Below, in pieces: positions 1 through 17,625 of a stretch of DNA of 64,000 nucleotides. Both the position numbers and the translations under genes were made by a program. Source of the DNA: a virus; IMG/VR virus record IMGVR_UViG_3300022698_000267, positions 209,564 to 273,563 of that record; one strand, 5' to 3'. The notes beneath the pieces were generated by a model. It did no database searches. It was not told the DNA's origin and saw nothing but the letters and a program-made list of their open reading frames with translations. The first letter of the stretch is position 1, and each line of letters opens with the position of its first letter.

Positions 1-725
1 TTAATGCCGCTCAGAATAGAGGCATTAATGAGATGAAACAGATATTGGTCGAAGCTCCCTATTTTCCATTGCATGGTAAAAGTAAAATATACATGTTTGA
101 TGAAGCACATATGCTTACCCCAGAGGCCCAAAATAGTTTACTGAAATTTTTGGAAGAGCCTCCCAAACATGTCTATATAGCTTTATGTACTACTGAACCT
201 CAAAAGCTATTAAAAACCATGCGAACTAGAAGTACGGCTTTTGTGGTTAAAAAGCAACCACTTCCAACAATAATGAAATTGTTAATGTGGGCTTGTAAAA
301 GAAATGATCTTGCTATTTCAAAGGTTATTCTTAGAAAGATAGCAACTGTTGCTGATGGTTGTCCAAGACAGGCACTTGTGATTTTAGATTCTATCTATTC
401 TTTGACAGATGAAGAACAAATTTTGGATGTAATCGAGACTTATAGCGAAGTTGGAGAGCTTTTGTCTGCTAATACCCTAGAACTTTGTCAAGCCTTACTG
501 GCGCAAAGAAAGTGGGATGTTGTTTCAAAAATACTAAATAATGTTGAGGGGGAACCAGAAAATATCCGTTATGGAATTCTAGCCTATATGACTAAAGTTT
601 TGCTTGGTGGAGATGAGCCACTAGCAGCTGCAGTTATTGAACAATGTAGAGGATCTTATATGTACACAAAGAAAGCAGGATTAGTGTACGATTGCTATAT
701 GATTACTACTCTTGGAGATGAATAA
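1..725 (+). CDS. DnaX-like AAA+ clamp-loader subunit (5' partial)
   Basis: This is the C-terminal part of a DNA polymerase III gamma/tau-like clamp-loader subunit, which would load the sliding clamp at the phage fork. The reading frame is open from base 3, upstream of the first ATG at 33. It encodes NAAQNRGINEMK, equivalent to the DnaX segment that precedes the Walker B strand. Walker B/DEAH follows (YMFDEAHML), then the conserved LLKFLEEPP segment and CTTEPQKL sensor-1 region. The usual SRC arginine-finger motif reads as TRST here. Walker A must lie left of the window. The rest is an all-helical region of about 150 residues. The gene overlaps the next one (ATG at 718). Identification as DnaX family is firm. 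Whether it is the only clamp-loader subunit of this phage cannot be seen. Confidence 0.85.
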   Translation, partial: NAAQNRGINEMKQILVEAPYFPLHGKSKIYMFDEAHMLTPEAQNSLLKFLEEPPKHVYIALCTTEPQKLLKTMRTRSTAFVVKKQPLPTIMKLLMWACKRNDLAISKVILRKIATVADGCPRQALVILDSIYSLTDEEQILDVIETYSEVGELLSANTLELCQALLAQRKWDVVSKILNNVEGEPENIRYGILAYMTKVLLGGDEPLAAAVIEQCRGSYMYTKKAGLVYDCYMITTLGDE

Positions 726-1281
726 AGTGGCAGATGTTGACACAGATTCCTACGAATTTATGCAAACTACCTATAAAGAAGATCTCTTTATAGATAAGTA
801 TAATTTAGATATCGAGTGGTTGAAACAGCCTATGTTATTTGTTAAATGGGCTGAAAGGTGGGCGGAGGCTGTAGAAAGGAGGGATAGAGCCAAGCAGTAC
901 TTAGAAGTTATTAAAGCGGAGATGTATACGAAGATCAAGAAAGATCCAGATGTGTATGGACTTCCGGATAAACCAACGGAAGGTGCAACTAATGCAATAG
1001 TTACCAAAAGTAAAAAATACAGATCAGCCTTCGAAGATTATTTGGATCTAAATGGTCAGGTTAATGTTTTGGCTAGCGCAAAAGAAGCTATGAACCATAA
1101 GAAAAGGGCTTTGGAATACGTTAGTCAATTGATGCTCGGAGGCTTTTATTCAAATCCGAATATTAAAGCCGAAGCAAGACAAAAAGTAGAAAATGAGAAA
1201 GGTTCAGAAATTAGAGGGCACATCAAAGACTCGAATAGGATGCAGGCGCGAAGCCAATTAACCGATACCGAGAATGAATAG
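718..1281 (+). CDS. Probable UvsY-like recombination mediator
   Basis: A 187-residue, highly charged, mostly helical protein whose ATG at 718 overlaps the clamp-loader stop; a TTG at 712 is possible but less likely. Its N-terminus has an acidic segment, then DLFID, a PMLFVKW stretch, and a long charged helix. Later come a VLASAKEAMNHKK helix and a GGF near the end. T4 UvsY shows the same order (DVFID, VMLYSKW, helix, GF) by eye. UvsY loads UvsX onto gp32-coated ssDNA, and this gene sits directly before a gp32-like gene and near a UvsX-like gene, which supports the call. The similarity is weak and visual, and the protein is longer than T4 UvsY (137 residues), so it could be an unrelated helical replication accessory. 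Confidence 0.45.
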   Translation: MNKVADVDTDSYEFMQTTYKEDLFIDKYNLDIEWLKQPMLFVKWAERWAEAVERRDRAKQYLEVIKAEMYTKIKKDPDVYGLPDKPTEGATNAIVTKSKKYRSAFEDYLDLNGQVNVLASAKEAMNHKKRALEYVSQLMLGGFYSNPNIKAEARQKVENEKGSEIRGHIKDSNRMQARSQLTDTENE

Positions 1282-1328
1282 TGTCTAGAAATTAGAAGAA
1301 CCGAGAATTTTGAATAGGAGGTGCTACT

Positions 1329-2354
1329 ATGGCATCAATTAGAGAAAAAATGAAGGAAAAGCTCGCCAATCGTGTAAAACAATCTTACAATAGAAGGGAA
1401 GGGCAAAATAAGTCCTACTTCAAATCAGACATTGACGCTAGCTTTTGGAAGGTGTCAGAGGATGATCATATTATTGATATTATCCCTTATCTGGCAGGTG
1501 AATTCGATCCATTAACCAAACCTGGCGATCCAACCTATGCATTGGAAATTTATGCTCATCAGGGTGTTGGCACAGATGAACGTGCAATGATTTGCATGTT
1601 GGAAAATTATGGCAAACCTTGTCCAATCTGTGAGCATCGAAAGGAACTGAGAAATCAGTATCCAGATGACAAAGATATGTGGAAACATTTGTATCCCAAA
1701 CGTAGAATGGTTTACAATATTGTTTGTTACGACTCCAGAAAAGAAGAGGACAAGGGTGTTCAAATTTGGGAAGTGGCTTGGTGGTTCACTGAAAGGCACT
1801 TTGTTAAACTGGCCAGAGAATCGAAGAGACCGGGACATGGCGACACTACTTATATTCCTTTCGCTGATCCAGATGATGGAAAAATGATCTCCTTTAGTCG
1901 TGAAGGTCAGGGTGCTCAAAATACTTCATTTGTTGCTCATAAATTTGTTGATAGAGATGTTCCAATTTCCAATGAGATTTTGGATGCAGCACATATCTTG
2001 GATGAACTTTTGTATCTACCAACTTACGAAGAAGTTTATGAGTTGTATTACCAACAACCCCCTCCTTCTTCTAAAGAGGAAGAAAAACCAGATGGTCCAA
2101 CTAGGGGAGGTTCTGTGAAACCTGAACCGAAACCTGAACCGAAACCTGAACCGAAACCTGAACCGAAACCTGAACCGAAACCTGAACCAAAACCGGAACC
2201 GGAACAGAAATCTGAATCTACAACTTCCGATGGTGAAGAAATTCCTCAATGTCCTGGTGGAGGGGAGTTTGGAGTTCACACTGATGAACTAGATGCTTGT
2301 GAGAATTGTAGCCTCTGGCCACCTTGTGCGAAGAAGAACGATCAGAACTCATAA
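1329..2354 (+). CDS. gp32-like single-stranded DNA-binding protein
   Basis: A 341-residue phage ssDNA-binding protein preceded by AGGAGG. It has a basic N-terminal segment (about 1-30) suited to cooperative binding. An OB-fold core (about 35-230) carries a gp32-type zinc site built from C89, C98 and C101 (CPIC), with His77 a plausible fourth ligand. A proline-rich acidic/basic KPEP repeat (about 264-292) acts as linker. The tail has a Cys motif (CPGGGEFG ... CENC ... C) of the kind found at the C-terminus of several phage gp32-like proteins. Its role is to coat ssDNA and recruit recombination and replication proteins. The KPEP tract is encoded by a 12-bp tandem repeat that could vary in copy number. 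The gene ends before a hairpin at 2379. Confidence 0.75.
   Translation: MASIREKMKEKLANRVKQSYNRREGQNKSYFKSDIDASFWKVSEDDHIIDIIPYLAGEFDPLTKPGDPTYALEIYAHQGVGTDERAMICMLENYGKPCPICEHRKELRNQYPDDKDMWKHLYPKRRMVYNIVCYDSRKEEDKGVQIWEVAWWFTERHFVKLARESKRPGHGDTTYIPFADPDDGKMISFSREGQGAQNTSFVAHKFVDRDVPISNEILDAAHILDELLYLPTYEEVYELYYQQPPPSSKEEEKPDGPTRGGSVKPEPKPEPKPEPKPEPKPEPKPEPKPEPEQKSESTTSDGEEIPQCPGGGEFGVHTDELDACENCSLWPPCAKKNDQNS
2121..2204 (+). repeat. 12-bp tandem repeat encoding the KPEP linker
   Basis: Seven consecutive 12-bp units: five perfect copies of cctgaaccgaaa, then two diverged copies. They lie in frame in the ssDNA-binding protein gene and encode Pro-Glu-Pro-Lys repeats. Such a repeat can expand or contract by slippage without breaking the frame. 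Confidence 0.9.
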
Positions 2355-2368
2355 TTTCAAATGTTCTG

Positions 2369-2416
2369 AATACTAAATAAATGGTGATATGTCTATTTTG
2401 CGTATCACCATTTTTA
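2369..2416 (+). terminator. AATACTA motif followed by hairpin with T-run
   Basis: An AATACTA heptamer (2369-2375), a recurrent intergenic motif in this genome, is followed by an inverted repeat. Its arms are aaatggtgata (2379-2389) and tatcaccattt (2403-2413), with T-rich sequence after it. The hairpin fits a weak intrinsic terminator for the ssDNA-binding protein transcript. If AATACTA is a promoter -10 element, the hairpin would instead lie in the leader of the caspase gene that starts at 2434. Confidence 0.5.
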
Positions 2417-2433
2417 TTTACGGGGGAATTACG

Positions 2434-3294
2434 ATGAAAAAGGCATTATTAGTTGGTATAAACGAATATCAAGGGTCTCCTTTAAAGGGGTGTGTCAACG
2501 ATTGTTTGTTGATGTATAAAATGCTCACCGAAGAATTTGATTTTGAAACCAAGGACATTAAACTGCTTACAGACCATGAGGCCACACAAGACAGAATATT
2601 GCTTGGTTTGTCAGCTTTGACGAGTGATGTACAACCAGGCGACACTATATACTTCCATTACAGTGGACATGGTTCTCAGGTGGCAGTAAATGATTGGACA
2701 GATAACTTTGAACCTGATGGAAGGGATGAGATTTTATGTCCTGTGAATTTAAATTGGGATTTTCCTCTTAGAGACCAGATGGTTGGCAGTTTTTTCAAAG
2801 ATTTACCAAAGGAAGTAAATGTGGTTGTTGTTTTGGATTGTTGTCATTCTGGTACTGGTCTCAGGGCTCCAATTAATTCAAATTTAGATGGACCAAAGTG
2901 GTTAGCAAACCGGTTTTTGCCACCTCCCCCATCTAAACTTCTTTCTAATCCATTAATTCGAGTTGATGCAGACATGAATTTTATACTTCCAGAACCAACT
3001 GAGGATCTTAGATCTATAAAGCGTCCTTTCTTGGTTGATACAGTAGAACAGGGACATGTCATTTTAATTACTGGTTGTCAAGACAATCAGACTAGTGCAG
3101 ACGCATATCTAGCAGGTACTTATCGTGGAGCTTTAACTTATTGTCTATACTACGTCCTTTCAAAAAGGAAATTTAACATGAGTTATGAAAAACTAGTCAT
3201 AGAGATCAATCGTTTGTTAGATAATAAACGATATGACCAAAATCCACAATTAGAATGTCTTCCTGAATACAAAAACAGAAAATTTTTGGGATAG
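2434..3294 (+). CDS. Caspase-fold (metacaspase-like, peptidase C14) protease
   Basis: A 286-residue protein with the bacterial/orthocaspase p20 layout. It opens MKKALLVGINEY, with a predicted first beta strand and the GINEY signature. The catalytic His79 lies in HYSGHGSQ, and the catalytic Cys137 in LDCCHSG after a hydrophobic strand. An acidic DEILCP loop lies between. The C-terminal half contains GHVILITGCQDNQTS and GALTYCL, as in p10-like regions of metacaspases. The start at 2434 is chosen because GGGGGAA lies just upstream and the caspase fold begins there; the upstream in-frame ATG at 2389 overlaps the hairpin. Metacaspases cleave after Arg/Lys; the substrate here is unknown. It lies inside the recombination cluster, 8 bp before recA/uvsX. 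Family assignment is firm and function is not. Confidence 0.85.
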   Translation: MKKALLVGINEYQGSPLKGCVNDCLLMYKMLTEEFDFETKDIKLLTDHEATQDRILLGLSALTSDVQPGDTIYFHYSGHGSQVAVNDWTDNFEPDGRDEILCPVNLNWDFPLRDQMVGSFFKDLPKEVNVVVVLDCCHSGTGLRAPINSNLDGPKWLANRFLPPPPSKLLSNPLIRVDADMNFILPEPTEDLRSIKRPFLVDTVEQGHVILITGCQDNQTSADAYLAGTYRGALTYCLYYVLSKRKFNMSYEKLVIEINRLLDNKRYDQNPQLECLPEYKNRKFLG

Positions 3295-3302
3295 GAGGAC
3301 TC

Positions 3303-4457
3303 ATGGCAGAATCTAAATTAAAAAGAGATAAAAGGCAGAAGTTAAAAGAAGGCTTAGCCGGAGCAGAGGAAGTGACTAAAAAAGAAGAAGCTAAAGCAAA
3401 AGCGGCTATTGACAAAAAGACCAAAGAACAAATGCAAGAAATTGTTGATGAAGTCATTGAAACTTCTATCGAACAAGACATCAGCGATTTAAACGAACCC
3501 ATACCTTTGGAAGAAGATTACTTAGTTTCTACTGGATCCACTTTATTGGATCTTAATATTTGTGGAAGTAGGATTAGAGGTGGGGGAATACCTGCAGGTA
3601 TTCTATGTGAATTCTTCGGTCCAAGTGGATGTGGAAAAACAGCTGTTCTTTCTGAAATAGCTACTAGTACACAAGTTAGAGGTGGAAGTGTACTTTATGC
3701 TGATCCAGAAGCTCGTTTGGATAGAAATTATGCTGAAACGTATGGGTTGAAAATCAATGAAGATGAGTATTCACGTCCAGATACGGTTTCACAACTCTTC
3801 GAAGTTCTTTGGGGTTGGAAGCCAAAGAATCCGAATGTGATAAATACGATTGCTTCAGATTCTCTTGCAGCTCTTTCCACAGAATTAGAAATGGATTCAG
3901 CAGACAAAATGGGGATGAGAAGAGCAAAAGAGTTCTCAGAAGGTCTTAGAAAGACGTGTAGGATCATTAAGAACAAAAAGTATATCATAGCATGCTCGAA
4001 TCAAATTCGGGGTGGTACAGGGGGTACAGTAACTCCAGGAGGAAATGCAGTGCCTTTCTATGCTTCACTTCGAGTTTCCATGTGGCCTTTACATTCTGAG
4101 AAAGTGCAAATAACCAAGGAACTTCCTAGCGGAAAAAGGGTTCCCAGAGTTATTGGTATTAAATCTTCCTGCGAAATTATTAAATCTTCAATTGATAATC
4201 CTTTTAGGACATGCGACATTTACATTATTTTTAATCATGGAATTGATGACATTCGAGGAAATTTACAATGGAGGAAAGATGTTACTGGTGATACCAAGTA
4301 TGATGTCTTCGATAAAGGTTATGTAGCAATGAATGATGCTATTAGATACATCGAAGCTCAGGATTATGAAGACAAACTTAGAGAGGAGGTGATAGATCTT
4401 TGGGAAGAAATTGAAAAGAAATTTGTGATTACTCGGAAGAAAAAGAAACGTAGATAG
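3303..4457 (+). CDS. UvsX/RecA-like recombinase
   Basis: A 384-residue RecA-superfamily ATPase for phage strand exchange. The first ~65 residues are a charged helix rich in Lys and Glu, longer than in typical UvsX. The core starts at STGSTLLDL and has Walker A GPSGCGKT (106-113). YADPEARLD provides the strand that carries the catalytic acid. A Walker-B-like hydrophobic strand follows (NTIASDSLAAL), then a SNQIR segment and a flexible GGTGGTVTPGG loop matching RecA L2. The tail is strongly basic. AGGAGG precedes the ATG. Its neighbours (gp32-like protein, UvsY-like protein, and further on Mre11/Rad50) make up a T4-type recombination-dependent replication set. Confidence 0.85.
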   Translation: MAESKLKRDKRQKLKEGLAGAEEVTKKEEAKAKAAIDKKTKEQMQEIVDEVIETSIEQDISDLNEPIPLEEDYLVSTGSTLLDLNICGSRIRGGGIPAGILCEFFGPSGCGKTAVLSEIATSTQVRGGSVLYADPEARLDRNYAETYGLKINEDEYSRPDTVSQLFEVLWGWKPKNPNVINTIASDSLAALSTELEMDSADKMGMRRAKEFSEGLRKTCRIIKNKKYIIACSNQIRGGTGGTVTPGGNAVPFYASLRVSMWPLHSEKVQITKELPSGKRVPRVIGIKSSCEIIKSSIDNPFRTCDIYIIFNHGIDDIRGNLQWRKDVTGDTKYDVFDKGYVAMNDAIRYIEAQDYEDKLREEVIDLWEEIEKKFVITRKKKKRR

Positions 4458-4502
4458 AAGTATGCAATCGACGGTACTTCAAAGATTGAGAAGGAGTTGA
4501 TT

Positions 4503-4958
4503 ATGGCAGTGTTTGGAATTGGTGCAAGATACGATACTCAGTGGGTTCACGAAGATTTTATTAGGAACAATATTGCATGTATCGGTCATGAAGAAGAAAA
4601 TGCTCCAGAAATATATCGAGATTTTCGAAGGATTACCAATGGTGATATCATATACATGAAGTCATTGGGTCCTAGATCCGATAAATTGTGTATCATGGGA
4701 GTAGGAATTGTTACAAACTCTAAAGTTCAAGAATTTTATGAGGGCAAAGGCAAAGATAAAATCTACTGGGGAAATGGTGTTAAGGTCTGGTGGATTTGGA
4801 CAGAAGAGATTTACTTTAAAACAAATCCAGAACGTGATTATCATTGGCATAGGCGATTAGGCACTTTTTATGAAGAATGTAACCCTAAAATTCATCGTAA
4901 AGTGATCCGACTTCTTTTAAAACCAAGAGGTCAATGTCCTAAAGGCTTATTCACCTAG
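4503..4958 (+). CDS. Hypothetical protein, possible EVE/PUA-like domain
   Basis: A 151-residue protein starting at ATG 4503, six bases after AAGGAG; a TTG at 4497 is in frame but lies directly on the ribosome site. The middle reads GDIIYMKS then a conserved-looking IMGVGIVTNS strand pair, which resembles the core of EVE/PUA-like domains that bind modified bases. The region around 85-120 is aromatic-rich (YWGNGVKVWWIW, YHWHRR). This is a fold-level impression only. EVE-like domains recognise modified DNA or RNA bases, but no such role can be shown here. It is followed closely by a structured intergenic element. Confidence 0.4.
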   Translation: MAVFGIGARYDTQWVHEDFIRNNIACIGHEEENAPEIYRDFRRITNGDIIYMKSLGPRSDKLCIMGVGIVTNSKVQEFYEGKGKDKIYWGNGVKVWWIWTEEIYFKTNPERDYHWHRRLGTFYEECNPKIHRKVIRLLLKPRGQCPKGLFT

Positions 4959-4969
4959 AACAGTAACTA

Positions 4970-5046
4970 GCCTGTACGTCATTACAACAAATGTAAAGGA
5001 CGTACAGGCGTTTCCGTGTACAGAGGTATGTCATGGTATGGGGATA
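4970..5046 (+). ncRNA. Conserved structured intergenic element, copy A
   Basis: A 77-nt element starting 12 bases after a stop codon. A perfect 11-bp inverted repeat (4970-4980 with 4999-5009) encloses a second stem, TTACA/TGTAA (4982-4986 with 4992-4996). It is followed by the string tacaggcgtttc and a second, weaker hairpin (5027-5032 with 5041-5046). A near-gapless homologue with compensatory pair changes lies at 15755-15831. No good T-run follows the first stem, so a plain intrinsic terminator is not obvious. It could be a transcript-end element, a processing site or a small RNA. The AATACTA motif lies just downstream at 5075. Confidence 0.55.
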
Positions 5047-5074
5047 GTTACAAACTCTAATAGAAATGGATTCT

Positions 5075-5081
5075 AATACTA
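5075..5081 (+). promoter_or_regulatory. AATACTA promoter-like motif
   Basis: The heptamer AATACTA lies about 45 bases before the nuclease start, after the structured element. The same heptamer occurs at several other gene-start regions of this genome and would fit a -10-type element. No consensus -35 box is seen here. Confidence 0.4.
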
Positions 5082-5126
5082 AAACCTTTTGAAAGAATTT
5101 CTTGTAATACTTCAATGGAGTTTCTG

Positions 5127-5690
5127 ATGGCTAAAGGTGGACAATTTGAACGTGATGTTTGTAAAGAACTTTCATTATGGTGGACAGAAGGGGAAAGAGA
5201 TGATATATTTTGGAGAACATCAGGTTCCGGTGCAAGGGCAAAAACTAGATCTAGACAGCAGAATAAAACCACAGCCTATTCATATGGGGATGTAACTTTT
5301 ACCGATCCAATTGGTCAACCACTCATTGCTAAATGTATATTAGAACTTAAAAGAGGTTATGGTAAGTGGTCACCTTTGGATCTGGTGGATAGACCAAAAA
5401 TGCGTAAAAATGCTAAGAAAATGCCGTTACAAACTCTGGAATCTTTTATAGAACAGGTTATGGAGGATGTAACAAATGCTGGAGGCTTTCATCATCCCAT
5501 TTTAATTTGTAGAAGAGATGGAAGAAGGAAGTTTATAGGAATTACAGACAGATTATTTCGAGCAATGGTAAATATGTTTGGATATCCTGAAACAACAATA
5601 CTTAGAATTAACACCAATCCATCTTTTCGATTTATGTCCTACCGATTTTTTCTTGATTGGTGTCATCCAGATTTTTTCAAATCCTGTTAA
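5127..5690 (+). CDS. PD-(D/E)XK nuclease, possible Holliday-junction resolvase
   Basis: A 187-residue protein with a PD-(D/E)XK nuclease signature: E8 in QFERDVCKEL, D55 in YGDVTF and E73-x-K75 in CILELKRG. This order, with a small fold and a basic patch before the Asp (GARAKTRSRQQNK), resembles archaeal Hjc and RecU-type resolvases. It would cut branched or damaged DNA during recombination or packaging. ATG 5127 is preferred over the in-frame ATG at 5115, because ATGGAG at 5115-5120 is its ribosome site. The nuclease class is well supported. The resolvase role is inferred from context. Confidence 0.65.
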   Translation: MAKGGQFERDVCKELSLWWTEGERDDIFWRTSGSGARAKTRSRQQNKTTAYSYGDVTFTDPIGQPLIAKCILELKRGYGKWSPLDLVDRPKMRKNAKKMPLQTLESFIEQVMEDVTNAGGFHHPILICRRDGRRKFIGITDRLFRAMVNMFGYPETTILRINTNPSFRFMSYRFFLDWCHPDFFKSC

Positions 5691-5707
5691 AAACATTCAT
5701 ATAATAC

Positions 5708-5736
5708 TTGAAATAACAATAAAATTCTGTTATACT
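5708..5736 (+). promoter_or_regulatory. Sigma70-type promoter for the ligase gene
   Basis: TTGAAA (5708-5713), a 17-bp spacer and TATACT (5731-5736) form a near-consensus bacterial vegetative promoter 37 bp before the ligase start. The region is AT-rich, and TATACTA resembles the recurrent AATACTA motif. This suggests early transcription by unmodified host RNA polymerase. Confidence 0.75.
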
Positions 5737-5772
5737 AAAATTAAGTTATAAATATAAATGGAGGTTTTATTG

Positions 5773-7644
5773 ATGGGTATACATGAGAGTGTGTTACAAA
5801 ATATGAGTGTAGAGCAACTAAGGGAAGAAATTAAAAAACACGACAATCTTTATTGGAAAGAACAGAATCCCATTATTTCTGATCCAGATTATGACAGATT
5901 AGTCCGAAGACTACAAGAATTAGAACCGGATGACTCTTTGGTTAGTGAGTTTAAAGAAGAGGAAGTAACTTCTTCTGGAAAAATTGAACATGAAAATCCG
6001 ATGTTAAGTTTGGATAAAGTCTACACTTCGGAAGAAGTTTTGAAATGGTGTAGAAAAGTAGCCAGAACAGTTAATGAGTGTTTTCTGCTACAAATTAAGT
6101 ACGATGGTTGTTCTGCAGAACTTGATAATGACATTCTTTCCACTAGAGGTGATGGTCATATTGGAGAAGATATTTCAGATAAAATTCCACACATTCGAAT
6201 TTTGACAGGACCAGATTTTATTCCAGCTATTGGATTTGAAGGCAAAATTAGGGGAGAATTGGTTTTACAAAAATCTGTTTTCTTACAATACAAAGATATT
6301 CTAAAGAGAAAAAGTGGAGAGCCTTATAAAAATTCCAGAAATGCTTGTGCAGGAATTTTAAATACCGATGATTTTGTCAGTCCTGTGAAAGAACCATTTT
6401 TAACCTTTGTTCCATTCGATAATTACACAATGTATAAGACTCTAAAGCAAATGGAGGATTTTATACTTAGTGGAGAATGGGATAAATTCGTTAAAGATTC
6501 TGAAAATCTAGATTATCCAGCAGATGGATTGGTTATAAAACTGGAAGATCAGTCTTATTGTAAAGAATTGGGAATGACCAAACATCATAGAAAATCAGAA
6601 CTTGCTTTCAAATTTGCAAATCCGTCAGCTAAAACTGTTCTTAAAGGTGTGACTCTTAGTTGTGGTAAAGGTTGTGTTACACCAATTGGCAATGTTGAAC
6701 CTGTTGAACTTGGTGGAGTTACAGTTAGCAATGTAAATCTTCACAATTGGAAAAATATCTTGGATATGGGAATCTTCATTGGTGACACTTTGATAGTGGA
6801 AAGGGCGGGAGATGTAATCCCTTACGTTGTTGGAGTTATTCCAGCTCAACATAGAGTTGCAATAGAAATGGATTACTGTCCAGTTTGTCATGGACCATTG
6901 ACATATGAAGAACCTGTAAAAGTTTGTAAAAATCCTGAATGTGGTGGATCTAATCTTAGAAAATTGTCTGATTCCGTTGTACGAATCGGGATTGAAAGAT
7001 TAGGTCGACCCACCCTTAAAGATATGATGAAAATTATAGGTGTTGTAAATTTGATCGATATCTTCCATCTTACAGAAGACGATTTATTAAGACTTCCTAG
7101 ATTTGGAAAAAGGAAGGCACAGAATCTACTTGAAGAAATAGACAAAGTTAAAAAGAATGGAGTGTACGAATGGCAGATTCTTTCAGCCATGAATATTCCT
7201 GGAATTGGCAGTACACTAAGTGAAAAAATACTGGAAGTTTATAATCTCAGAGATCTTATCTTTTTGTGTAGAACAGAACCTGCAATTTCCGAATTAACTT
7301 CTTTAGATGGAATAGAGGTTGAAAGAGCCAGTATTTTAGTAGATGGTGTTTTGGATAATAAAGGATACCTTTTGAAATTGCTTTCTATTCTTCCTATTAA
7401 AGAACCGAAGAAGAAAGATTCGAAAGTTGTAAAGATTTGTTTCAGTGGTAAATTTCCTGATAAAAAGAAAGTATACTACCAGATGTTGGAAGGTAAAAAT
7501 TTCGAGATTATGGAAAAAGTTGATAAAACCTTGGATATTCTAGTTGTAGCAGATTCAACAAAAAATAGTGGTAAGCAGCAAAAAGCTGAAAAATTAGGAA
7601 TTAAGGTCTTAGAACTAGACTCCCTACTAACTTCAATTAAGTAG
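5773..7644 (+). CDS. ligA: NAD+-dependent DNA ligase
   Basis: A 623-residue LigA-family ligase that seals nicks using NAD+ and releases NMN and AMP. Domain order is complete. The Ia NMN-binding region is at the N-terminus (YYDxPxxSDPxYD-like NLYWKEQNPIISDPDYD). The adenylation lysine is K109 in KYDG. Motif III is SRNACAG, motif IV ADGLVIK, and motif V ELAFKF. An OB-fold follows, then a four-Cys zinc finger (CPVC ... CKNPEC), helix-hairpin-helix repeats (LPRFGKRKAQNL, IPGIGSTLSEKI) and a C-terminal BRCT domain (VKICFSGKFPDKK ...). It is slightly shorter than the usual ~670. ATG 5773 follows GGAGG; the ATG at 5758 is part of that site. Its NAD+ use connects to pncB at 15.9 kb. Confidence 0.95.
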   Translation: MGIHESVLQNMSVEQLREEIKKHDNLYWKEQNPIISDPDYDRLVRRLQELEPDDSLVSEFKEEEVTSSGKIEHENPMLSLDKVYTSEEVLKWCRKVARTVNECFLLQIKYDGCSAELDNDILSTRGDGHIGEDISDKIPHIRILTGPDFIPAIGFEGKIRGELVLQKSVFLQYKDILKRKSGEPYKNSRNACAGILNTDDFVSPVKEPFLTFVPFDNYTMYKTLKQMEDFILSGEWDKFVKDSENLDYPADGLVIKLEDQSYCKELGMTKHHRKSELAFKFANPSAKTVLKGVTLSCGKGCVTPIGNVEPVELGGVTVSNVNLHNWKNILDMGIFIGDTLIVERAGDVIPYVVGVIPAQHRVAIEMDYCPVCHGPLTYEEPVKVCKNPECGGSNLRKLSDSVVRIGIERLGRPTLKDMMKIIGVVNLIDIFHLTEDDLLRLPRFGKRKAQNLLEEIDKVKKNGVYEWQILSAMNIPGIGSTLSEKILEVYNLRDLIFLCRTEPAISELTSLDGIEVERASILVDGVLDNKGYLLKLLSILPIKEPKKKDSKVVKICFSGKFPDKKKVYYQMLEGKNFEIMEKVDKTLDILVVADSTKNSGKQQKAEKLGIKVLELDSLLTSIK

Positions 7645-7662
7645 ACAAGGAGGTGTTTTTAC

Positions 7663-7998
7663 GTGATTAATTTAGATAAAAATGATGATATCGATATTAA
7701 GGTTTCGATTATTGGTTTACCACAGAGTGGGAAGTCCACAATAATTTATCTGCTAACAAGAGCATTACAGGATATTGGGATGAAAGTGACTGCTTATGAT
7801 TCAGAACCATTAAAAAATCATGATTCCAATATTCATTTGAAATGTGAAGCTCTAAGAGGAAAAAAGATTTCTATTCATACCATAGCTTTGAAAAGCAAGG
7901 ATTTTAGTAGCATGGCACCGGAAATGCAAGGTGTAGAGGCTCTTCGTGAAAGAGTTCGAGATTCTAAACGTAGAAGGGGTCCAACTGATACTTTTTAA
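7663..7998 (+). CDS. Small P-loop protein (paralogue 1)
   Basis: A 111-residue protein starting with GTG seven bases after AAGGAGGTG. It has a clear Walker A motif, GLPQSGKST (18-26), after a hydrophobic strand. There is no convincing Walker B or GTPase G3/G4 motif, and it is much shorter than ordinary kinases or GTPases. The segment HLKCEALRGKKISIHT matches LRCEAIKDLSVLIKT in the protein at 9040-9291, so the two are paralogues flanking the PRPP synthetase gene. Nucleotide binding is likely. Function is unknown. Confidence 0.7.
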   Translation: MINLDKNDDIDIKVSIIGLPQSGKSTIIYLLTRALQDIGMKVTAYDSEPLKNHDSNIHLKCEALRGKKISIHTIALKSKDFSSMAPEMQGVEALRERVRDSKRRRGPTDTF

Positions 7999-8039
7999 AA
8001 AGAACAGGTTACTTTAACTATTGATTCTGGGGGGACAAA

Positions 8040-8993
8040 TTGGGAAAAAACAATGGTAGAATTCTAAAAATTATTGATGGTTCAGCTAATACTCCTTTGG
8101 TTGATGACATCTGTTTCAATTCTAATTTAATTGGTTCGGAAGTCAAAGATGTTGTTAGTACATTTTCCGATAAAGAAACTCAAATAGAAATCGAAGAAAA
8201 TATGCGAGGTTGTGATGTATTTGTGATTCAACCTACTTCTTCACCAGCCAATGAACATTTGATGCAATTATATTTCATACTAGATGCTTTAAAAAGAAGT
8301 AATTGTTGGCGGGTTACGGCAGTTATTCCTTACTATGGTTATGGAAGACAGGATAAAAAGTTGAAGCCCAGAGTTCCAATCTCTGCCAAATCTGTAGCCA
8401 GTTTAATTGAGTTTGGTGGAGTTAATAGAGTCCTCACTATGGATCTTCATGCTAATCAAATTCAAGGATTTTTTAATTGTCCAGTTGACAATTTATTTGC
8501 ATCTTCCATATTTTTGCCTTATATGCGTAAGCATGTAGACCCAAATTCTGTGATAGTATCACCAGATGAAGGTGGAATTGCCAGGGCGGTTCATTACTCT
8601 AAAGCTTTAGGACTTCCTGCAGCAATGATTCATAAATCAAGACTCATAGCAAATGAAGTTGACAAGATGATACTATTAGGTTCTGTAAGAAATATGCACG
8701 CAATCATTATCGATGATATGTGTGATACAGCAACCACACTTTGTAAAGGTGCTGCTATTTTAAAAGATGCTGGAGCATTAAGTGTGGAAGCTTTTGTAAC
8801 ACATGGTGTATTTTCCGGTAAGGCTTACGAAAAAATAGCAGATTCTGCCTTCGAGGTTGTTAATGTGACAGATTCAATAAAACAGTCGACTATTTACACA
8901 GAAAAAATCAATGTCATCTCTTGTGCAGACCTTTTTGCAAAAGCAATTTTGAATATTCATGATGAAACTTCAGTTAGTTGTCTCTTCGAGTAA
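8040..8993 (+). CDS. prs: Ribose-phosphate pyrophosphokinase (PRPP synthetase family)
   Basis: A 317-residue full-length Prs-family protein starting with TTG after GGGGGGACA. Family motifs are in place: the ANEHLM substrate segment, the PYYGYGRQDKK ATP loop, TMDLHANQIQGFF, VDNLFAS, VSPDEGG, and the PRPP loop DDMCDTATTL, ending ESVSCLFE-like (ETSVSCLFE). The enzyme makes PRPP from ribose-5-phosphate and ATP, feeding purine, pyrimidine and NAD synthesis. Differences from housekeeping Prs include Glu in VSPDEGG, Cys in the PRPP loop, and HKSR instead of the usual DKRR. The ADPR-pyrophosphate synthetases of phage NAD-reconstitution pathways are annotated as Prs, so substrate could differ. Two P-loop paralogues flank it and pncB lies 7 kb away. 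Confidence 0.9.
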   Translation: MGKNNGRILKIIDGSANTPLVDDICFNSNLIGSEVKDVVSTFSDKETQIEIEENMRGCDVFVIQPTSSPANEHLMQLYFILDALKRSNCWRVTAVIPYYGYGRQDKKLKPRVPISAKSVASLIEFGGVNRVLTMDLHANQIQGFFNCPVDNLFASSIFLPYMRKHVDPNSVIVSPDEGGIARAVHYSKALGLPAAMIHKSRLIANEVDKMILLGSVRNMHAIIIDDMCDTATTLCKGAAILKDAGALSVEAFVTHGVFSGKAYEKIADSAFEVVNVTDSIKQSTIYTEKINVISCADLFAKAILNIHDETSVSCLFE

Positions 8994-8998
8994 CAAAA

Positions 8999-9005
8999 AA
9001 TACTA
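8999..9005 (+). promoter_or_regulatory. AATACTA promoter-like motif
   Basis: AATACTA lies just after the prs stop codon and 35 bases before the start of the second P-loop gene. The sequence between them is very AT-rich. It is one of the repeated intergenic heptamers of this genome. Confidence 0.4.
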
Positions 9006-9039
9006 AAATTTATAGAAATTAATTTCAATGGAGGGTAGC

Positions 9040-9291
9040 ATGGGGAAAAAGGAGTTACAAATACTGATAATTGGAGAAGCTGGTAGAGGTAAATCTACAA
9101 TGGCTAGAATTATTCAACATGCTTTACAAGATCGTGAGTTTGATGATGTAACTATTAAAGATGAAATTGTAGAAGGTGTTCCAGATTCTTTCAATGAGGA
9201 CGTCAGTATGAATCTTCGTTGTGAGGCTATAAAGGATCTTTCAGTACTCATTAAAACCAAACAGTCGGTGAAAGGAGGATTCAATGTTTAG
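9040..9291 (+). CDS. Small P-loop protein (paralogue 2)
   Basis: An 83-residue protein with Walker A GEAGRGKST (12-20) and the same layout as the protein at 7663-7998, ending shortly after the shared L(R/K)CEA segment. ATG 9040 is chosen over 9028, because ATGGAGGG at 9028-9035 serves as its ribosome site. It overlaps the transglycosylase start by 8 bases, suggesting translational coupling. It has no visible Walker B. It may be a truncated NTPase or a nucleotide-sensing adaptor; function is unknown. Confidence 0.65.
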   Translation: MGKKELQILIIGEAGRGKSTMARIIQHALQDREFDDVTIKDEIVEGVPDSFNEDVSMNLRCEAIKDLSVLIKTKQSVKGGFNV

Positions 9292-9955
9292 AAAATTTGT
9301 TACAAGCAATACATTTATAGCTATAGTTTTAACTGTTATAGCTATGGGAGTCTTTGCAGTAATGGATTTTTTCCCACGATTGAGTGCTTCAGTTTCTGAG
9401 AATTCTATTGAGAGACCTGACATGCTCTCAGAGGTTTTTTTTGAATCAGAGGTTCCATTTAGGCAAATTGGACCTCTTAGACAACCAGAAACGGATGATC
9501 AGAAAATAATACGTTTTTCCTCTATTATAGAAAAAAGGCAGCCTCGTTTGGATCCAGCTATAGCAGAACAGATTGCTAAGTGTACATTGATATCTTCCAA
9601 ACGTTATGGATTCCCTCCGGAAATGATTCTTGCTTTGATGAAAAGGGAATCTACATTTATTCCAACTTTAGTTTCTAGTGCAGGTTGTAAAGGTTTGATG
9701 CAAGTGTACCCTGAAAAGCATCTGAAGAAATTAAAAAGAAGAGGGATTTCTAAAGATTCACCAAAGATTTTTTACATCGCTCCAAATATTGATATTGGAT
9801 GCGAAATTCTTAGGGAGTATTATGATTCTGCAAAAGGGAATGTTAAACAAGCCCTAAAACAGTATGTTGGTGGGAAACATGATACGTATCTAACCGATGT
9901 CACTGTGGAATTTACTTCCTTAATGTTGGAAAAGTTTGATTCTTCCAACATGTAA
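9284..9955 (+). CDS. Membrane-anchored lytic transglycosylase (SLT family)
   Basis: A 223-residue protein with an N-terminal membrane segment (about 11-29) followed by a ~70-residue linker and a C-terminal lysozyme-like SLT domain. Family features: the catalytic Glu122 in LMKRES, SSAGCKGLMQV matching the S-x-GA-x-GLMQ motif, a central NIDIGCEILREYY helix, and KQALKQYVGG near the end. It would cleave peptidoglycan glycan strands, either in lysis or for membrane-side wall remodelling. The membrane anchor and position among metabolic genes, with no holin next to it, leave its stage uncertain. Confidence 0.85.
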   Translation: MFRKFVTSNTFIAIVLTVIAMGVFAVMDFFPRLSASVSENSIERPDMLSEVFFESEVPFRQIGPLRQPETDDQKIIRFSSIIEKRQPRLDPAIAEQIAKCTLISSKRYGFPPEMILALMKRESTFIPTLVSSAGCKGLMQVYPEKHLKKLKRRGISKDSPKIFYIAPNIDIGCEILREYYDSAKGNVKQALKQYVGGKHDTYLTDVTVEFTSLMLEKFDSSNM

Positions 9956-9967
9956 TAGGAGAAAATC

Positions 9968-10285
9968 ATGAATACCGATCGTATGACAAAAGATGAGAAG
10001 TCAATTCTTCTATATCTAGAATCCTGTGCAACCGATGATATTGGTAGAATAGATTCTAGAAAGATTAATGATATCGATCTGGAAATAATGAAAAAATGGA
10101 ATAAAAGTGGTTTTATTTCATTTGGAAGATTAAGATCTGCCGATATTAAATCTGGGAGTTTCAAAGCCACATGGGTTAAACTGTCTGATGAAGCTTGGGA
10201 AACTGCTTTCAAATTGCGAAAGGAAAGAGCTTTAAGGATGGAGAAGAATTACCCTTATGAAAGGAAAGAGATAGGTGTTCTATAA
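9968..10285 (+). CDS. Hypothetical protein, possibly winged-helix
   Basis: A 105-residue basic protein following AGGAGAAAATC. The order of predicted helices (KDEKSILLYLESCA, DLEIMKKWNKSGFISFGRL) followed by a beta turn and WVKLSDEAWETAFKLR resembles the arrangement of small MarR/winged-helix proteins (wing then LTDKG-like helix). That resemblance is only structural guesswork. The end overlaps the next gene by 11 bases, so the two are probably translated together. Confidence 0.55.
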   Translation: MNTDRMTKDEKSILLYLESCATDDIGRIDSRKINDIDLEIMKKWNKSGFISFGRLRSADIKSGSFKATWVKLSDEAWETAFKLRKERALRMEKNYPYERKEIGVL

Positions 10286-10757
10286 CACACCAGAAAAATT
10301 GGAACCTCTACTTTGGGCTGTGGAACAGACATGGGAAATAACTCAAAGAGAGGATTATCATCCCGAAATTTATGTGCATCTGCACCTTCTACAATGTTTC
10401 TATATAGCTGTTAAGGAAACCAGAGACATAGATATTATAGTTGCTGCCCTAGTTCATGATGTTGGAAAAGTTGGTGGTAGCCATGGACATGAAAAACGTT
10501 CTGTTGATATGCTGGAATGTCACTGTTCTGAGAAGACCCTTTGGTTAATCGAACAACATATTAAAATTTGGTCTCTTTTAACAGGACAAATGAAGAAAAG
10601 GTCAAAGGTTCAGAATCTAATGTCACATCCATGGTTTCTAGATTTAATACTTCTGGCTAGAATTGATAAGATGGGAAGGAATTTGGGCAGGACAGTTTAC
10701 TATGATAAAGAAGAGATTATCAACACCATCCTAGAAGCAAAAATCCATAATTCTTAG
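10275..10757 (+). CDS. HD-domain metal-dependent phosphohydrolase
   Basis: A 160-residue HD-superfamily protein starting with GTG inside the previous gene. Metal ligands are visible: His35 or His37 in YVHLHLLQ, the HD pair H61-D62 in ALVHDVGK, His72 in GHEKRS, His95 in IEQHI and a late Asp in ARIDKMGR. The VHDVGK form is typical of HD phosphohydrolases acting on nucleotides or cyclic nucleotides. A role in dNTP or nucleotide turnover would fit the neighbourhood, but the substrate cannot be told. It does not resemble the YfbR/DatZ branch closely. Confidence 0.75.
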   Translation: MFYNTPEKLEPLLWAVEQTWEITQREDYHPEIYVHLHLLQCFYIAVKETRDIDIIVAALVHDVGKVGGSHGHEKRSVDMLECHCSEKTLWLIEQHIKIWSLLTGQMKKRSKVQNLMSHPWFLDLILLARIDKMGRNLGRTVYYDKEEIINTILEAKIHNS

Positions 10758-10759
10758 TG

Positions 10760-10802
10760 AATTCAAAAAATATTTGAATTAAATTCAAAAAAATACTATA
10801 TT
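10760..10802 (+). promoter_or_regulatory. Promoter with overlapping palindrome upstream of rtcB
   Basis: TTGAAT (10774-10779), a 17-bp spacer and TATATT (10797-10802) form a good sigma70-type promoter ending 25 bp before the rtcB start. An 8-bp palindrome, AATTCAAA (10760-10767) with TTTGAATT (10773-10780), covers the -35 box and would suit a dimeric repressor. The half-site ATTCAAA recurs directly after it. An AATACTA heptamer (10792-10798) overlaps the -10. Confidence 0.6.
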
Positions 10803-10827
10803 TCTATAAAATAAATGGAGAATAAGA

Positions 10828-12012
10828 ATGTTAACTTATCGAGATAAACCAAAAGACTATAAAATATTTGGAATTCCAGGTGTGGATTTTGAGTACGAAG
10901 CTCTTGAACAGATGAATAAAGTTATGTCCATTCCTGTTAGCTTAGAAGGGGCTGTAATGCCTGACGCTCACGTTGGATATGGTATGCCTATTGGTGGAGT
11001 AGCTGCTTTAAAGGATGCAGTAAGTCCCAATTTCGTGGGATATGATATAGCTTGTCGAATGACTCTTACTATTTTGGATATTGACATTCCAGAACTTTTA
11101 AAGAATCGAGAACTTATAGCTGGACATATGTTAGCTTCTTCAAGTTTTGGGGTAGGATCTATTTCTAATCGAAGAACAGATCATCCAGTTATGTATTCTC
11201 CTCTATGGAAAGAGCTTTCACATCTTAAAGAGTTGCAGTCTTTGGCTGAGGAACAATTGGGAACCAGTGGATCTGGAAATCATTTCTTCAATGCTATGAT
11301 AGGTCAGGTAGTAAATGAAGCAGATTGGTTACCTTTGAATGTTGGTGACAAATTTGTTGCTATTATGACACATTCTGGAAGTCGTGGAGTTGGTCATAAA
11401 TTAGCTACTCATTATATTAAATTAGCAAAACAAGAAACTAAGGCTATTGCCAAAGGAATTCCAAGAGATTATGAGTGGTTAGATATCAGAAAAGATTCTG
11501 GTCGTGAATATTTGAAAGTAATGTCTTTAATGGGTGAATACGCGGAAGCAAATCATCAGATTATTCACGATTCTTTTCTGAAAAAGTCAGGATTAAAACA
11601 GATTGTTCGTTATCAAAATCATCATAATTTTGCTTGGGAAGGACCTAATGGAATAGTTATACATCGTAAGGGTGCAACCCCTGCTCAATTAGGACAGATT
11701 GGAATAATTCCAGGTTCAAGTGGAACAGCTTCTTATCTTGTTGAAGGAAGAGGAGAGGTCACTGGTTTATGTTCCTCAAGTCATGGTGCTGGTAGAAAGT
11801 TCAGTAGGAATGAAGCAAAGGCAAAGTATAAAAAGCATATTGTCGATGCTCATATGAAAGATTACGATATTCTTGGTATTGGGATAAACAAAGATGAAAC
11901 TTTGATGGCTTATAAGGATATTGAGCACGTTATGGATTTACAAAAAGATCTTGTTTCTCCAGTAGCAAGAATGCTTCCAAAGGTTGTCATCATGGCTGGA
12001 AAAAGAAATTAG
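10828..12012 (+). CDS. rtcB: RtcB-family RNA ligase
   Basis: A 394-residue RtcB ligase, which joins 2',3'-cyclic phosphate and 5'-OH RNA ends using GTP and Mn2+, as needed to repair tRNA or rRNA cut by ribotoxins. Conserved parts are present: PDAHVGYGMPIGGV, a metal-site Cys76 in VGYDIACRM (a variant of the common DVGCGM), GTSGSGNHF, HSGSRGVGH, HHNFAWE, a PGSSGTASYLVEG loop, and SSSHGAGR containing the His that is guanylylated. Length matches the shorter bacterial RtcB subfamilies. It has its own promoter with a palindrome. A GGQ-domain release-factor-like gene lies 3.4 kb downstream. Confidence 0.92.
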   Translation: MLTYRDKPKDYKIFGIPGVDFEYEALEQMNKVMSIPVSLEGAVMPDAHVGYGMPIGGVAALKDAVSPNFVGYDIACRMTLTILDIDIPELLKNRELIAGHMLASSSFGVGSISNRRTDHPVMYSPLWKELSHLKELQSLAEEQLGTSGSGNHFFNAMIGQVVNEADWLPLNVGDKFVAIMTHSGSRGVGHKLATHYIKLAKQETKAIAKGIPRDYEWLDIRKDSGREYLKVMSLMGEYAEANHQIIHDSFLKKSGLKQIVRYQNHHNFAWEGPNGIVIHRKGATPAQLGQIGIIPGSSGTASYLVEGRGEVTGLCSSSHGAGRKFSRNEAKAKYKKHIVDAHMKDYDILGIGINKDETLMAYKDIEHVMDLQKDLVSPVARMLPKVVIMAGKRN

Positions 12013-12113
12013 ATTTTTTTTCAATAATTACCCGATTAAGTAAGTGAAAAATACTATATATAGAATATAGATTTTTTATTTACTATTTTAAATGTAAACG
12101 AAAGGAGAGAATC
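12013..12113 (+). promoter_or_regulatory. AT-rich intergenic region with AATACTA motif
   Basis: An extremely AT-rich stretch containing AATACTA (12051-12057), directly followed by a short palindrome ctatatatag. A strong ribosome site (AAAGGAGAG) lies before the next ATG. A promoter for the VWA cassette is likely. No convincing -35 box or terminator is visible. Confidence 0.4.
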
Positions 12114-12497
12114 ATGGAAGAAAAAGACAAAAATGGAGCAGTAGCAACCAGCAATCCCTCAGCAGTAGTGGAGGTTCCCGGTGCCTTTATGTATTCCTTG
12201 AAAAGGAACAACAAGCAGATTCGGGATGACAGGGCCATGGCCATCGCTGAGGACACTCAGCTTATCTACAAGCGGACCATGGAAGACCTGGAAGTCGCAT
12301 TGAAGAGAATGCGACGGGAACAGGAAAATATGCTGGATTTGTCACCCACCGACGCCCGGAGCCTGGTTTTGGCAAGCGATTTCGATTCCAAGGAATACGT
12401 CAACAAAGACGTGGAATTGGGAGTAAAAATCCGCAATACCGAAATCAAATTGGAAATTGCCAAGGCCCGATATGAATACCTGTTCGGCGAAGTGTAA
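12114..12497 (+). CDS. Hypothetical coiled-coil protein of a GC-richer cassette
   Basis: A 127-residue, mostly helical protein. A disordered N-terminus (about 1-22) is followed by a long charged helical segment (about 28-80) and a second helix near the C-terminus, with no Cys and no membrane segment. Base composition is clearly richer in G and C than the genes on either side, using codons such as CGG, GCC, GAC and CTG that are rare elsewhere here. Together with the VWA gene it looks like a cassette with a different history. The helix pattern suggests oligomerisation. Function is unknown. Confidence 0.7.
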   Translation: MEEKDKNGAVATSNPSAVVEVPGAFMYSLKRNNKQIRDDRAMAIAEDTQLIYKRTMEDLEVALKRMRREQENMLDLSPTDARSLVLASDFDSKEYVNKDVELGVKIRNTEIKLEIAKARYEYLFGEV

Positions 12498-12501
12498 ACC
12501 A

Positions 12502-12645
12502 ATGAAACCTTTTCGCAACATTCTCATAAAGTTCAAAGAGTTTGTTGCGAAAAAGTGGTTTCAATTTCGTTGTCCACATCAACATTTGCATGTATGGCCT
12601 CATATGTATGTATGTGATCGGTGTGGAAAAACTTTTAAAGATTAA
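12502..12645 (+). CDS. Small Zn-finger-like protein
   Basis: A 47-residue protein with a basic amphipathic N-terminus, then CPHQHLHVWPH and CDRCG, a Cys2/His-rich arrangement likely to bind one zinc ion. The start at ATG 12502 lies 4 bases after the preceding stop. An upstream in-frame ATG at 12457 lies within the previous gene and gives a less natural protein. An imperfect 13-bp inverted repeat (12507-12519 with 12543-12555) falls inside the coding sequence. It is placed between the coiled-coil and VWA genes and may be a partner of either. Confidence 0.5.
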   Translation: MKPFRNILIKFKEFVAKKWFQFRCPHQHLHVWPHMYVCDRCGKTFKD

Positions 12646-12659
12646 AAAGGAGGATTAAA

Positions 12660-13529
12660 ATGGGTGGTGGAACATATTCATCAACAGCCAGAGCTACCAG
12701 GGCATTTCATTCTGGATATCATACGAAGTCGGCCCAAGAAATTTTTACCCAAAGAAACATCAACAATGCCATGAGCCCCTATGGTCTTGGGATTCGGGAA
12801 TCCAGGGATTCAGAAGAGCATCCAAAATCATATCCGATTATACTAGGTCTTGACGTAACTGGATCGATGGGAAGCGTTCCTCATTTTCTGGTAAAGGAAG
12901 GTCTTCCGAAAATCATGGATGGTATTATTGAAGCCGGAATTCCTGATCCTCAGGTTTTGTTTTTGGGGATTGGTGATCATCAAGTCGATGATGCTCCAAT
13001 TCAAGTCGGCCAATTTGAAAGTTCGGATGAACTTCTGGATAAATGGTTGACCGATATTTATTTGGAAGGTGGGGGTGGTGCAAATGCCGGTGAAAGTTAC
13101 TTTTTGGCCTGGTACGTTGCAGCCAAACACACTGAAACGGACAGTTTTATAAAACGTCAACAGAAGGGCATCCTTTTCACAATCGGTGATGAGCCAGATC
13201 TGCGTACTTTTTCTGGAAAGTCTGCAAAAAATATATTTGGTGCTGGTGAATATGCCAAAGAGTATTCGGACTTTGCATTGTTGGAAGAAGCAATGTTGAC
13301 TTACAATGTATTCCATATCAATATCAATGAAACCAGTTCCGGTTCCAGAAGAATGGTCCAAGATGGATGGAAACAAATTCTGGCAGACAACGCTTTATTT
13401 GCGAATCGGAGGGAAGATGTTGTTGGAATCATTACCGATAAGATTGTCGAAATTTACAAGGCCACAGAAACGGCGCCGACCATTGTACCGGAAGAGTACG
13501 TCGAAACATCAGTAGAGGAAATGCTGTGA
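12660..13529 (+). CDS. von Willebrand factor A (VWA) domain protein
   Basis: A 289-residue soluble protein following AAAGGAGGA. Residues about 58-255 form a VWA fold. The first strand ends in a metal-ion site, ILGLDVTGSMGS (MIDAS D65-x-T-G-S), a later Thr/Gly-rich loop contains LEGGGGANAGES, and the third segment ILFTIGDEPDL supplies the distal acidic ligands. The N-terminus is Gly/Ser-rich with an SSTARATRAF stretch. There is no signal peptide or membrane anchor, so it is cytoplasmic or a virion component. VWA proteins mediate protein contacts and often work with AAA+ ATPases; no MoxR-like partner is visible next to it. Its end overlaps the PurA-homologue start by four bases. Composition is GC-richer than flanking genes. 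Confidence 0.85.
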   Translation: MGGGTYSSTARATRAFHSGYHTKSAQEIFTQRNINNAMSPYGLGIRESRDSEEHPKSYPIILGLDVTGSMGSVPHFLVKEGLPKIMDGIIEAGIPDPQVLFLGIGDHQVDDAPIQVGQFESSDELLDKWLTDIYLEGGGGANAGESYFLAWYVAAKHTETDSFIKRQQKGILFTIGDEPDLRTFSGKSAKNIFGAGEYAKEYSDFALLEEAMLTYNVFHININETSSGSRRMVQDGWKQILADNALFANRREDVVGIITDKIVEIYKATETAPTIVPEEYVETSVEEML

Positions 13530-14677
13530 TATCAAAAGCCGTTATTGATTGCGGATTTGGAGATGCTGGCAAAGGAAAAGTTGTAAGTTACCTTTGTCAG
13601 CATTTCAGTAATCCTTTGGTAATTCGTTTTTCTGGTGGACAGCAGGCTGCTCATCATGTCGTGCTGCCTGACGGTCCAGACCACGTTTTTTCCAATTTTG
13701 GTAGTGGTACCCTCCAGGGAGTTCCCACCTATTGGGCTAAATATTGTACAGTGGATCCAGTAGGAATTTTAAATGAATTAGACGTTCTGAAAGAAAAAGG
13801 CATTGAACCGAAATTATACATTGATAGTCTTTGTCCTGTGACAACTCCGTTTGAGAAGTATTTGAATGTTGTTCAAAATCGGAGAAACGAACATGGCAGT
13901 TGTCAAGTCGGTGTTGGACCAACTTATCAACGAGAAGAGGACTTTTTTCATTTGCAGTTCAGGGATCTTTTCAATCCTACTGTTCTCAAAATCAAATTGG
14001 ATATGTTTCAGAAACATTACTATCCAATGTCCAGATATGCCCATTCTACATTACAGGCTGATGATTTTAAAAAAGCTGAAATTGAATTTTTCAGTTGTGT
14101 AGAAGAGTTGGTAAATTGTCCTAATGTAATTCGTGTTAGTCATTTTCCAAGTGGCTATGAAGATTACATTTTTGAATCTTCTCAAGGTCTTCTTTTGGAT
14201 CAACATATTGGTTTTTTTCCTCATGTATCTAGGGGTAACTTTGGAACTAAAAATATACTGAATATGGGGTTTAATAGTTTTTCAGTAACTTTGGTTACAA
14301 GGGCATATCAGACCCGTCATGGAAATGGACCAATGACCAATGAGGACATTCCTCATAAAATAAAGGTAAATCCGTATGAAGAAAATCCCGATGACAATGC
14401 TCAAGGCAAATTTAGGATTTCTTTACTAGATTTGGATTTACTAAAGTATTCTATATACAGTGACCCTTACATTTTGAGTTTTAGAACTGAAGTAGATTTA
14501 ATAATTACCTGTTTGGACTTGATTGATGAAGATTACAGACTTACAGTAGATGGGAAAGTTTGTGAATTTAAAAATGAAAGGGATTTTGTTCAGTGTATAA
14601 AGTCTGAACTTGCGATTGACAAAGTGCGTCTCAGTAGGACACCATTTCCAGAAGTGGAGCTTTTCGACTCTTTATAA
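13526..14677 (+). CDS. Adenylosuccinate synthetase family protein (PurA/PurZ-like)
   Basis: A 383-residue homologue of adenylosuccinate synthetase, about 50 residues shorter than bacterial PurA. It starts with a GTG overlapping the VWA stop. The GTP loop and catalytic Asp are kept: FGDAGKGK with D13. A catalytic His lies in GGQQAAHH (H43, where PurA has GGHNAGH). SQGLLLD preserves the IMP-site Gln. TRHGNGPM corresponds to PurA's TRVGxGPF. Differences are strong: GTTGRGIGP becomes SCQVGVGP, and the Arg-rich loop before the C-terminal domain becomes NAQGKFR. PurA makes adenylosuccinate from IMP; the phage PurZ branch acts on dGMP in making 2-aminoadenine DNA. The retained Asp argues against a classical PurZ, but substrate is open. 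The first ~200 bp are GC-richer than the rest. Confidence 0.85.
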   Translation: MISKAVIDCGFGDAGKGKVVSYLCQHFSNPLVIRFSGGQQAAHHVVLPDGPDHVFSNFGSGTLQGVPTYWAKYCTVDPVGILNELDVLKEKGIEPKLYIDSLCPVTTPFEKYLNVVQNRRNEHGSCQVGVGPTYQREEDFFHLQFRDLFNPTVLKIKLDMFQKHYYPMSRYAHSTLQADDFKKAEIEFFSCVEELVNCPNVIRVSHFPSGYEDYIFESSQGLLLDQHIGFFPHVSRGNFGTKNILNMGFNSFSVTLVTRAYQTRHGNGPMTNEDIPHKIKVNPYEENPDDNAQGKFRISLLDLDLLKYSIYSDPYILSFRTEVDLIITCLDLIDEDYRLTVDGKVCEFKNERDFVQCIKSELAIDKVRLSRTPFPEVELFDSL

Positions 14678-14691
14678 GGAGGGGGTTTTTA

Positions 14692-14844: not shown

Positions 14845-14863
14845 AATAATAGAGGATTTTACT

Positions 14864-15172: not shown

Positions 15173-15184
15173 AAGGATGATAAA

Positions 15185-15738: not shown

Positions 15739-15754
15739 GTGCTTAACTTTCACG

Positions 15755-15831: not shown

Positions 15832-15905
15832 TGAATTATAGATTACAAAGAATATTTGACACTAGAGTGAACATGAAAATCTCAAAAATTTTATTCGAAG
15901 GATGA

Positions 15906-15921: not shown

Positions 15922-15950
15922 ATATTATTTAAACTTTTCTGGAGATTTTT

Positions 15951-17126: not shown

Positions 17127-17135
17127 GAGAAAATA

Positions 17136-17609: not shown

Positions 17610-17625
17610 AAGAATAGGATTTTAA

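Follow-up and report, generated by a model that had tools for sequence, protein, structure and literature searches.

Two short intergenic segments in the genome of a large uncultured jumbo phage resemble each other, and they raise the question of whether they are copies of one structured RNA element and, if so, what this element would do where it lies. The window that we analysed, a stretch of 64,000 nucleotides, covers positions 209,564-273,563 of a 273,563-base virus record. The genome encodes a portal protein, two DNA topoisomerase II subunits, a DNA polymerase and a tRNA cluster, and no near DNA match to the first 20 kb was found among cultured phages. Few cis-acting RNAs have been described in jumbo phages without cultured relatives. 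An RNA polymerase β subunit was not detected in the phage and a sigma-70 region-2 protein is present, so that transcription probably relies on the polymerase of the host together with a sigma factor of the phage.

The first segment (copy A) occupies positions 4970-5046 and the second (copy B) positions 15754-15831, both on the plus strand. A resembles B from 4970 up to about 5046, which agrees with the limits given for A in the preliminary description, while the start of B had been placed one base off. The alignment is nearly gapless, as had been described, with one single-base indel close to the 3' end, and 67% of the positions are identical across 73 nt, with E 1.6e-5 for the whole genome. 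When all intergenic regions were compared with one another, the pair reached E 1.7e-6 (about 2e-6) and was the only significant one once repeat families are set aside; every pair that scores better comes from the early-promoter repeats, from the tRNA region, or from repetitive sequence within a long ORF at the right end. The relatedness of A and B is thus beyond chance. The shared string noted earlier also stands: the two copies have 17 of the 18 bases of TACAGGCGTTTCyGTGTA in common, this core is found at A and B only, and a 12-mer of it has exactly two occurrences in the genome. A covariance model of the pair (R1), run genome-wide in search of a third copy, returned A and B only. As for the early-promoter repeats (TTCAAATAGTACTTGACA...TATACT), they form a large family before many small genes (G000, about 113-157 kb), and one lone copy precedes the DNA ligase gene (window 5688-5746).

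The 5' half of the element looks like a genuine conserved RNA hairpin when modelled by folding. In A (4970-5009, plus strand) an 11-bp outer stem (4970-4980 with 4999-5009) encloses a 5-bp inner stem (4982-4986 with 4992-4996), with pair probabilities mostly above 0.9. The hairpin of B (15752-15795, plus strand) is bulged and includes G-U pairs, its three helices joining 15752-15759 with 15788-15795, 15761-15764 with 15782-15785, and 15767-15771 with 15776-15780. Compared with shuffled sequences, folding of the plus strand gives z -5.1 for A and -4.5 for B, against -1.7 for the minus strand of B; likewise, the 40-nt hairpin of B is predicted at -17.8 kcal/mol on the plus strand and at -7.9 on the minus strand. 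Since the hairpin of B holds through G-U pairs, and on the plus strand only, an RNA is favoured over a DNA palindrome. Fifteen positions of the first 40 nt are substituted between the copies, yet each copy keeps a stable hairpin; when these 15 positions are mutated at random, 0.3-1.4% of trials match the observed stability (p about 0.003-0.014), the hairpin of B outperforming about 99% of the mutated controls. RNAalifold on the two-row alignment gave a z of -3.0 to -3.5, and shuffling of the columns produced an equally good fold in 3 of 1000 cases. Counted by eye on the predicted pairs, the hairpins differ by 3 double changes and 3 one-sided changes (all towards a plus-strand G-U), 8 pairs being unchanged, a count that depends on a one-base shift of a bulge in B. 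The compensatory changes that had been claimed are borne out in part; the replacement of a G-C by an A-T pair exists only after that shift, and with only two sequences and a result to which bulge placement matters, covariation is weak. The mutation controls, the plus-strand specificity in B and the column shuffles support a two-copy structured RNA; of the proposed architecture (outer stem, inner stem, linker, 3' hairpin), only the first hairpin stands.

The shared 3' hairpin of that plan was not recovered. A and B prefer different most stable 3' pairings, and neither 3' half, folded alone, surpasses shuffled sequences in stability (p 0.06 and 0.12); in A, the pairing of TATGTC with GGGATA is not clean and contains a G-G mismatch. 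B alone has a 3' hairpin of 9 bp (15811-15833, plus strand; pair probability 0.85-1.0 in context), with no clean equivalent in A. Around A, a closing helix GTAACTA/TAGTTAC (4963-5051, plus strand) joins 4963-4969 with 5045-5051 at pair probabilities of 0.74-1.0; it has no clear counterpart in B and is absent from the predicted fold of B. Given the different pairings and the lack of unusual stability, a shared 3' hairpin is not supported, and what the two 3' halves have kept in common is their sequence. Conservation between the copies is densest in the 3' arm and tail, which the alignment and the core pattern delimit as TACAGGCGTTTCCGTGTAcagAGGTAT in A (5003-5029, plus strand) and TACAGGCGTTTCTGTGTAtgaAGGTAT in B (15787-15813, plus strand), the tail following the pattern GTTTCyGTGTAnnnAGGTAT. 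A tail kept in sequence though not in pairing suggests specific recognition. A 14-base exact repeat, GTTACAAACTCTAA, is found inside the gene upstream of A (window 4710-4723) and just past A (5047-5060), perhaps as a small local duplication.

The surroundings of the two copies have features in common. A lies 11 nt after the end of a gene of no known family (4503-4958) and before a gene for a PDDEXK_15/RusA-like nuclease (5115-5690), while B lies 15 nt after a gene for an RF-1-domain (PrfH/ArfB-like) protein (15400-15738) and before one for nicotinate phosphoribosyltransferase (15951-17126), all four on the plus strand. The preliminary description had reported a stop codon shortly upstream and an ATACTA motif downstream of each copy, and both observations were reproduced: on the plus strand, one ATACTA begins 29 nt past A (5076-5081) and the first of two begins 76 nt past B (15908-15921, with motifs at 15908-15913 and 15916-15921). 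Judged by its distribution, the motif is likely to be a promoter: it is enriched in the interval 20-70 nt before gene starts, where it has 40 sites and its reverse complement 11. The near-constant spacing from the stop codon (11 and 15 nt), set against the variable spacing to ATACTA, indicates that the element is tied to where the upstream gene ends and not to the promoter that follows, and its location just past a stop codon and upstream of ATACTA makes the 3' UTR of the preceding transcript its most likely place.

Relatives of the RF-1-domain protein end where the phage protein ends, with the alignment reaching residue 110 of 112, so that the B region is not a missed C-terminus; a frameshifted extension into B was rejected on the same grounds, and recoding of TAG as sense, which would extend the gene before A, was rejected because TAG ends 75 of the 356 called ORFs. 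Nor are the copies intrinsic terminators, that is, G+C-rich hairpins with a U-tract. The intrinsic terminators of the same phage are, like A and B, strong intergenic hairpins shortly past stop codons, and several of its other intergenic hairpins do carry a T-tract; no such tract follows the hairpin of A or B, which have the conserved tail instead, and neither copy appears in a terminator scan. The lack of a T-tract argues that they are not ordinary terminators. A phage RNase III was searched for as a possible processing enzyme and none was found, so that such an enzyme would have to be the host's.

As stated in the preliminary description, the element is not recognisable as a riboswitch or tRNA, since there is no Rfam match above the curated threshold and no ARAGORN tRNA call; tRNA, tmRNA and the Rfam families, riboswitches and ribozymes included, were rejected for this reason. 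Searches of IMG/VR, GTDB genomes, phages, plasmids and E. coli yielded no homologue outside the genome. The covariance-model search that had been suggested was extended to 18 related IMG/VR records and returned nothing, a negative that is weak because the only positive controls were those of this genome. Several candidate matches were discarded: three IMG/VR exact-pattern matches that look like unrelated sequence, 27 further pattern matches that score at chance with the model, a 15.5-bit match inside a coding ORF (L006), and a 21-base match on the opposite strand of an HNH gene in a Pantoea plasmid, the last two being ascribed to chance. A syntenic relative, the 55-kb contig G001, has a RecA 75% and a polymerase 73% identical to those of the phage and carries an orthologue of the gene preceding A. 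At the junction after this orthologue the element is absent, the gene matches between the contig and the phage stop directly after that position, and the contig has no match to the B region. Absence of homologues with covariation had been named in advance as evidence against the element, and this is in part what we found, in searches that were limited and with a relative represented by a 55-kb fragment.

We consider that A and B are best explained as paralogous, lineage-specific copies of a cis-acting plus-strand RNA recognised by a specific factor, a reading to which we give a probability of about 0.45. The element would comprise a hairpin of roughly 40 nt followed by a sequence-conserved tail, and would form part of the untranslated 3' end of the transcript that precedes it. 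Hairpin and tail may be recognised by a phage or host RNA-binding protein, by a nuclease or by the transcribing RNA polymerase, and this recognition could control the end, the stability or the read-through of the upstream transcript into the next unit. Against this reading, there are two sequences from one genome, no outside homologue and a relative without the element. If confirmed, it would provide a compact regulatory RNA where operons meet at two places of the region for replication and nucleotide metabolism; at present it is an orphan motif in two copies, of moderate to low general interest. There is a small chance that it is an RNA, either protein-free or dependent on a phage factor, that directs the host polymerase, or transcript ends, at the junctions between operons in a jumbo phage lineage and is unrelated in sequence to put, nut and any Rfam family.

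Among the alternatives, the least unlikely is a relic, an intergenic fragment that was duplicated or imported and is now functionless. The existence of two copies only, the absence of the element from the sole syntenic relative and the loss of synteny right after A are compatible with it. However, at 67% identity an unconstrained hairpin would be expected to have decayed, while that of B exceeds nearly all of its mutated controls, and conservation focuses on the 3' arm and tail.

Unlikely too, and ranked after the relic, is an antiterminator of the type of HK022 put, in which the nascent hairpin RNA would bind the host polymerase and let it pass the pauses and terminators further downstream. 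The putL and putR sites encode processive antiterminator RNAs, two sequence-related copies of ~70 nt per genome, which act in cis on the host polymerase, consist of two stem-loops and are promoter-proximal (PMC9378689). Their characteristic trait is antitermination through binding of the zinc-binding domain of the RNAP β' subunit. A and B resemble them in being two related copies per genome, about 70-77 nt long, hairpin-rich and presumably used with the host polymerase, so that put RNA may be regarded as the closest working analogue. In contrast to put, A and B have one clearly conserved hairpin, the second pairing differing between copies and being no more stable than shuffles, and they lie after genes and before promoters, with ATACTA directly downstream, rather than just past early promoters. 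Moreover, the sole intergenic-looking plus-strand terminator match in window positions 1-20,000 is upstream of both copies. Model R1 matches nothing in HK022 24,000-40,751, a weak test since putL and putR were not located in that stretch. Phage lambda offers a second comparison, since its nut sites (boxA/boxB) are short paired RNA elements, two per genome, that combine a hairpin with a conserved single-stranded part. The hairpins of A and B are much longer, and no candidate N-like partner was identified in the phage.

Doubtful, and placed below the antiterminator, is a small trans-acting RNA processed from both 3' UTRs, whose conserved tail would serve as a seed or bind a protein. A conserved, single-strand-like tail beside a stable hairpin in probable 3' UTRs would suit it, but neither a U-rich 3' end nor a promoter of its own was seen, and the 12-base core has no exact reverse complement elsewhere in the genome.

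Still less probable is a site acting at the DNA level, an operator or a replication or recombination site bound as a double-stranded palindrome. A contains a perfect inverted repeat of 11 bp, precedes a promoter motif and lies at a break in synteny, as such a site might; the inverted repeat of B, however, is imperfect as DNA and depends on one-strand G-U pairing, the two copies differ in their distance from the promoter downstream, and a GC-skew switch occurs at neither copy.

A riboswitch or attenuator of the downstream genes, possibly NAD-related, is very improbable. Nicotinate phosphoribosyltransferase follows B, and the stretch downstream of A also encodes NAD-dependent DNA ligase and PRPP synthetase, so that nearby NAD-metabolism genes are a feature in common with NAD+ riboswitches (classes I and II). 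But this link was spotted after the fact, A is followed first by a nuclease gene, a copy of the early-promoter repeat stands before the ligase, a promoter motif separates element and gene in both cases, no expression platform is present near the start codon, and no Rfam riboswitch matches. The least credible reading is that the segments encode protein, because, although both copies are stop-free across the element in one frame (GxTGVSVYxG) with several synonymous core differences (by eye), the differences are spread evenly across codon positions (8, 9 and 8, by eye), no Pfam family matches, A would need read-through of two TAG codons where TAG is an ordinary stop, B would need a frameshift, and the relatives of the neighbouring proteins lack any such extension.

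Other features of the genome deserve mention. The genes for NAD-dependent DNA ligase (window 5758-7644), PRPP synthetase (8040-8993) and nicotinate phosphoribosyltransferase (15951-17126) lie within 12 kb and may form an NAD+ maintenance set of the type that phages use against NAD-depleting defences. An RtcB-family RNA ligase (10828-12012) together with the RF-1-domain, PrfH-like protein recalls the bacterial prfH-rtcB pair. A phage-type adenylosuccinate synthetase (13526-14677; phrog_1211) is only weakly similar to PurZ, so that the DNA may, at most, carry modified bases. The replication region also has a gene for a caspase-like peptidase (Peptidase_C14; 2389-3294). In L023, ARAGORN calls a tRNA with a CUA anticodon (9067-9144) as tRNA-Pyl, in spite of the role of TAG as an ordinary stop in the phage, and the phage record encodes a 1183-aa PAS-domain hybrid histidine kinase (L025, 60-3611). 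Finally, the ORF-poor appearance of the right end of the window is due to a single frame of at least 2454 codons (56638-63999), which runs off the window and contains internal repeats of 56-72% identity.
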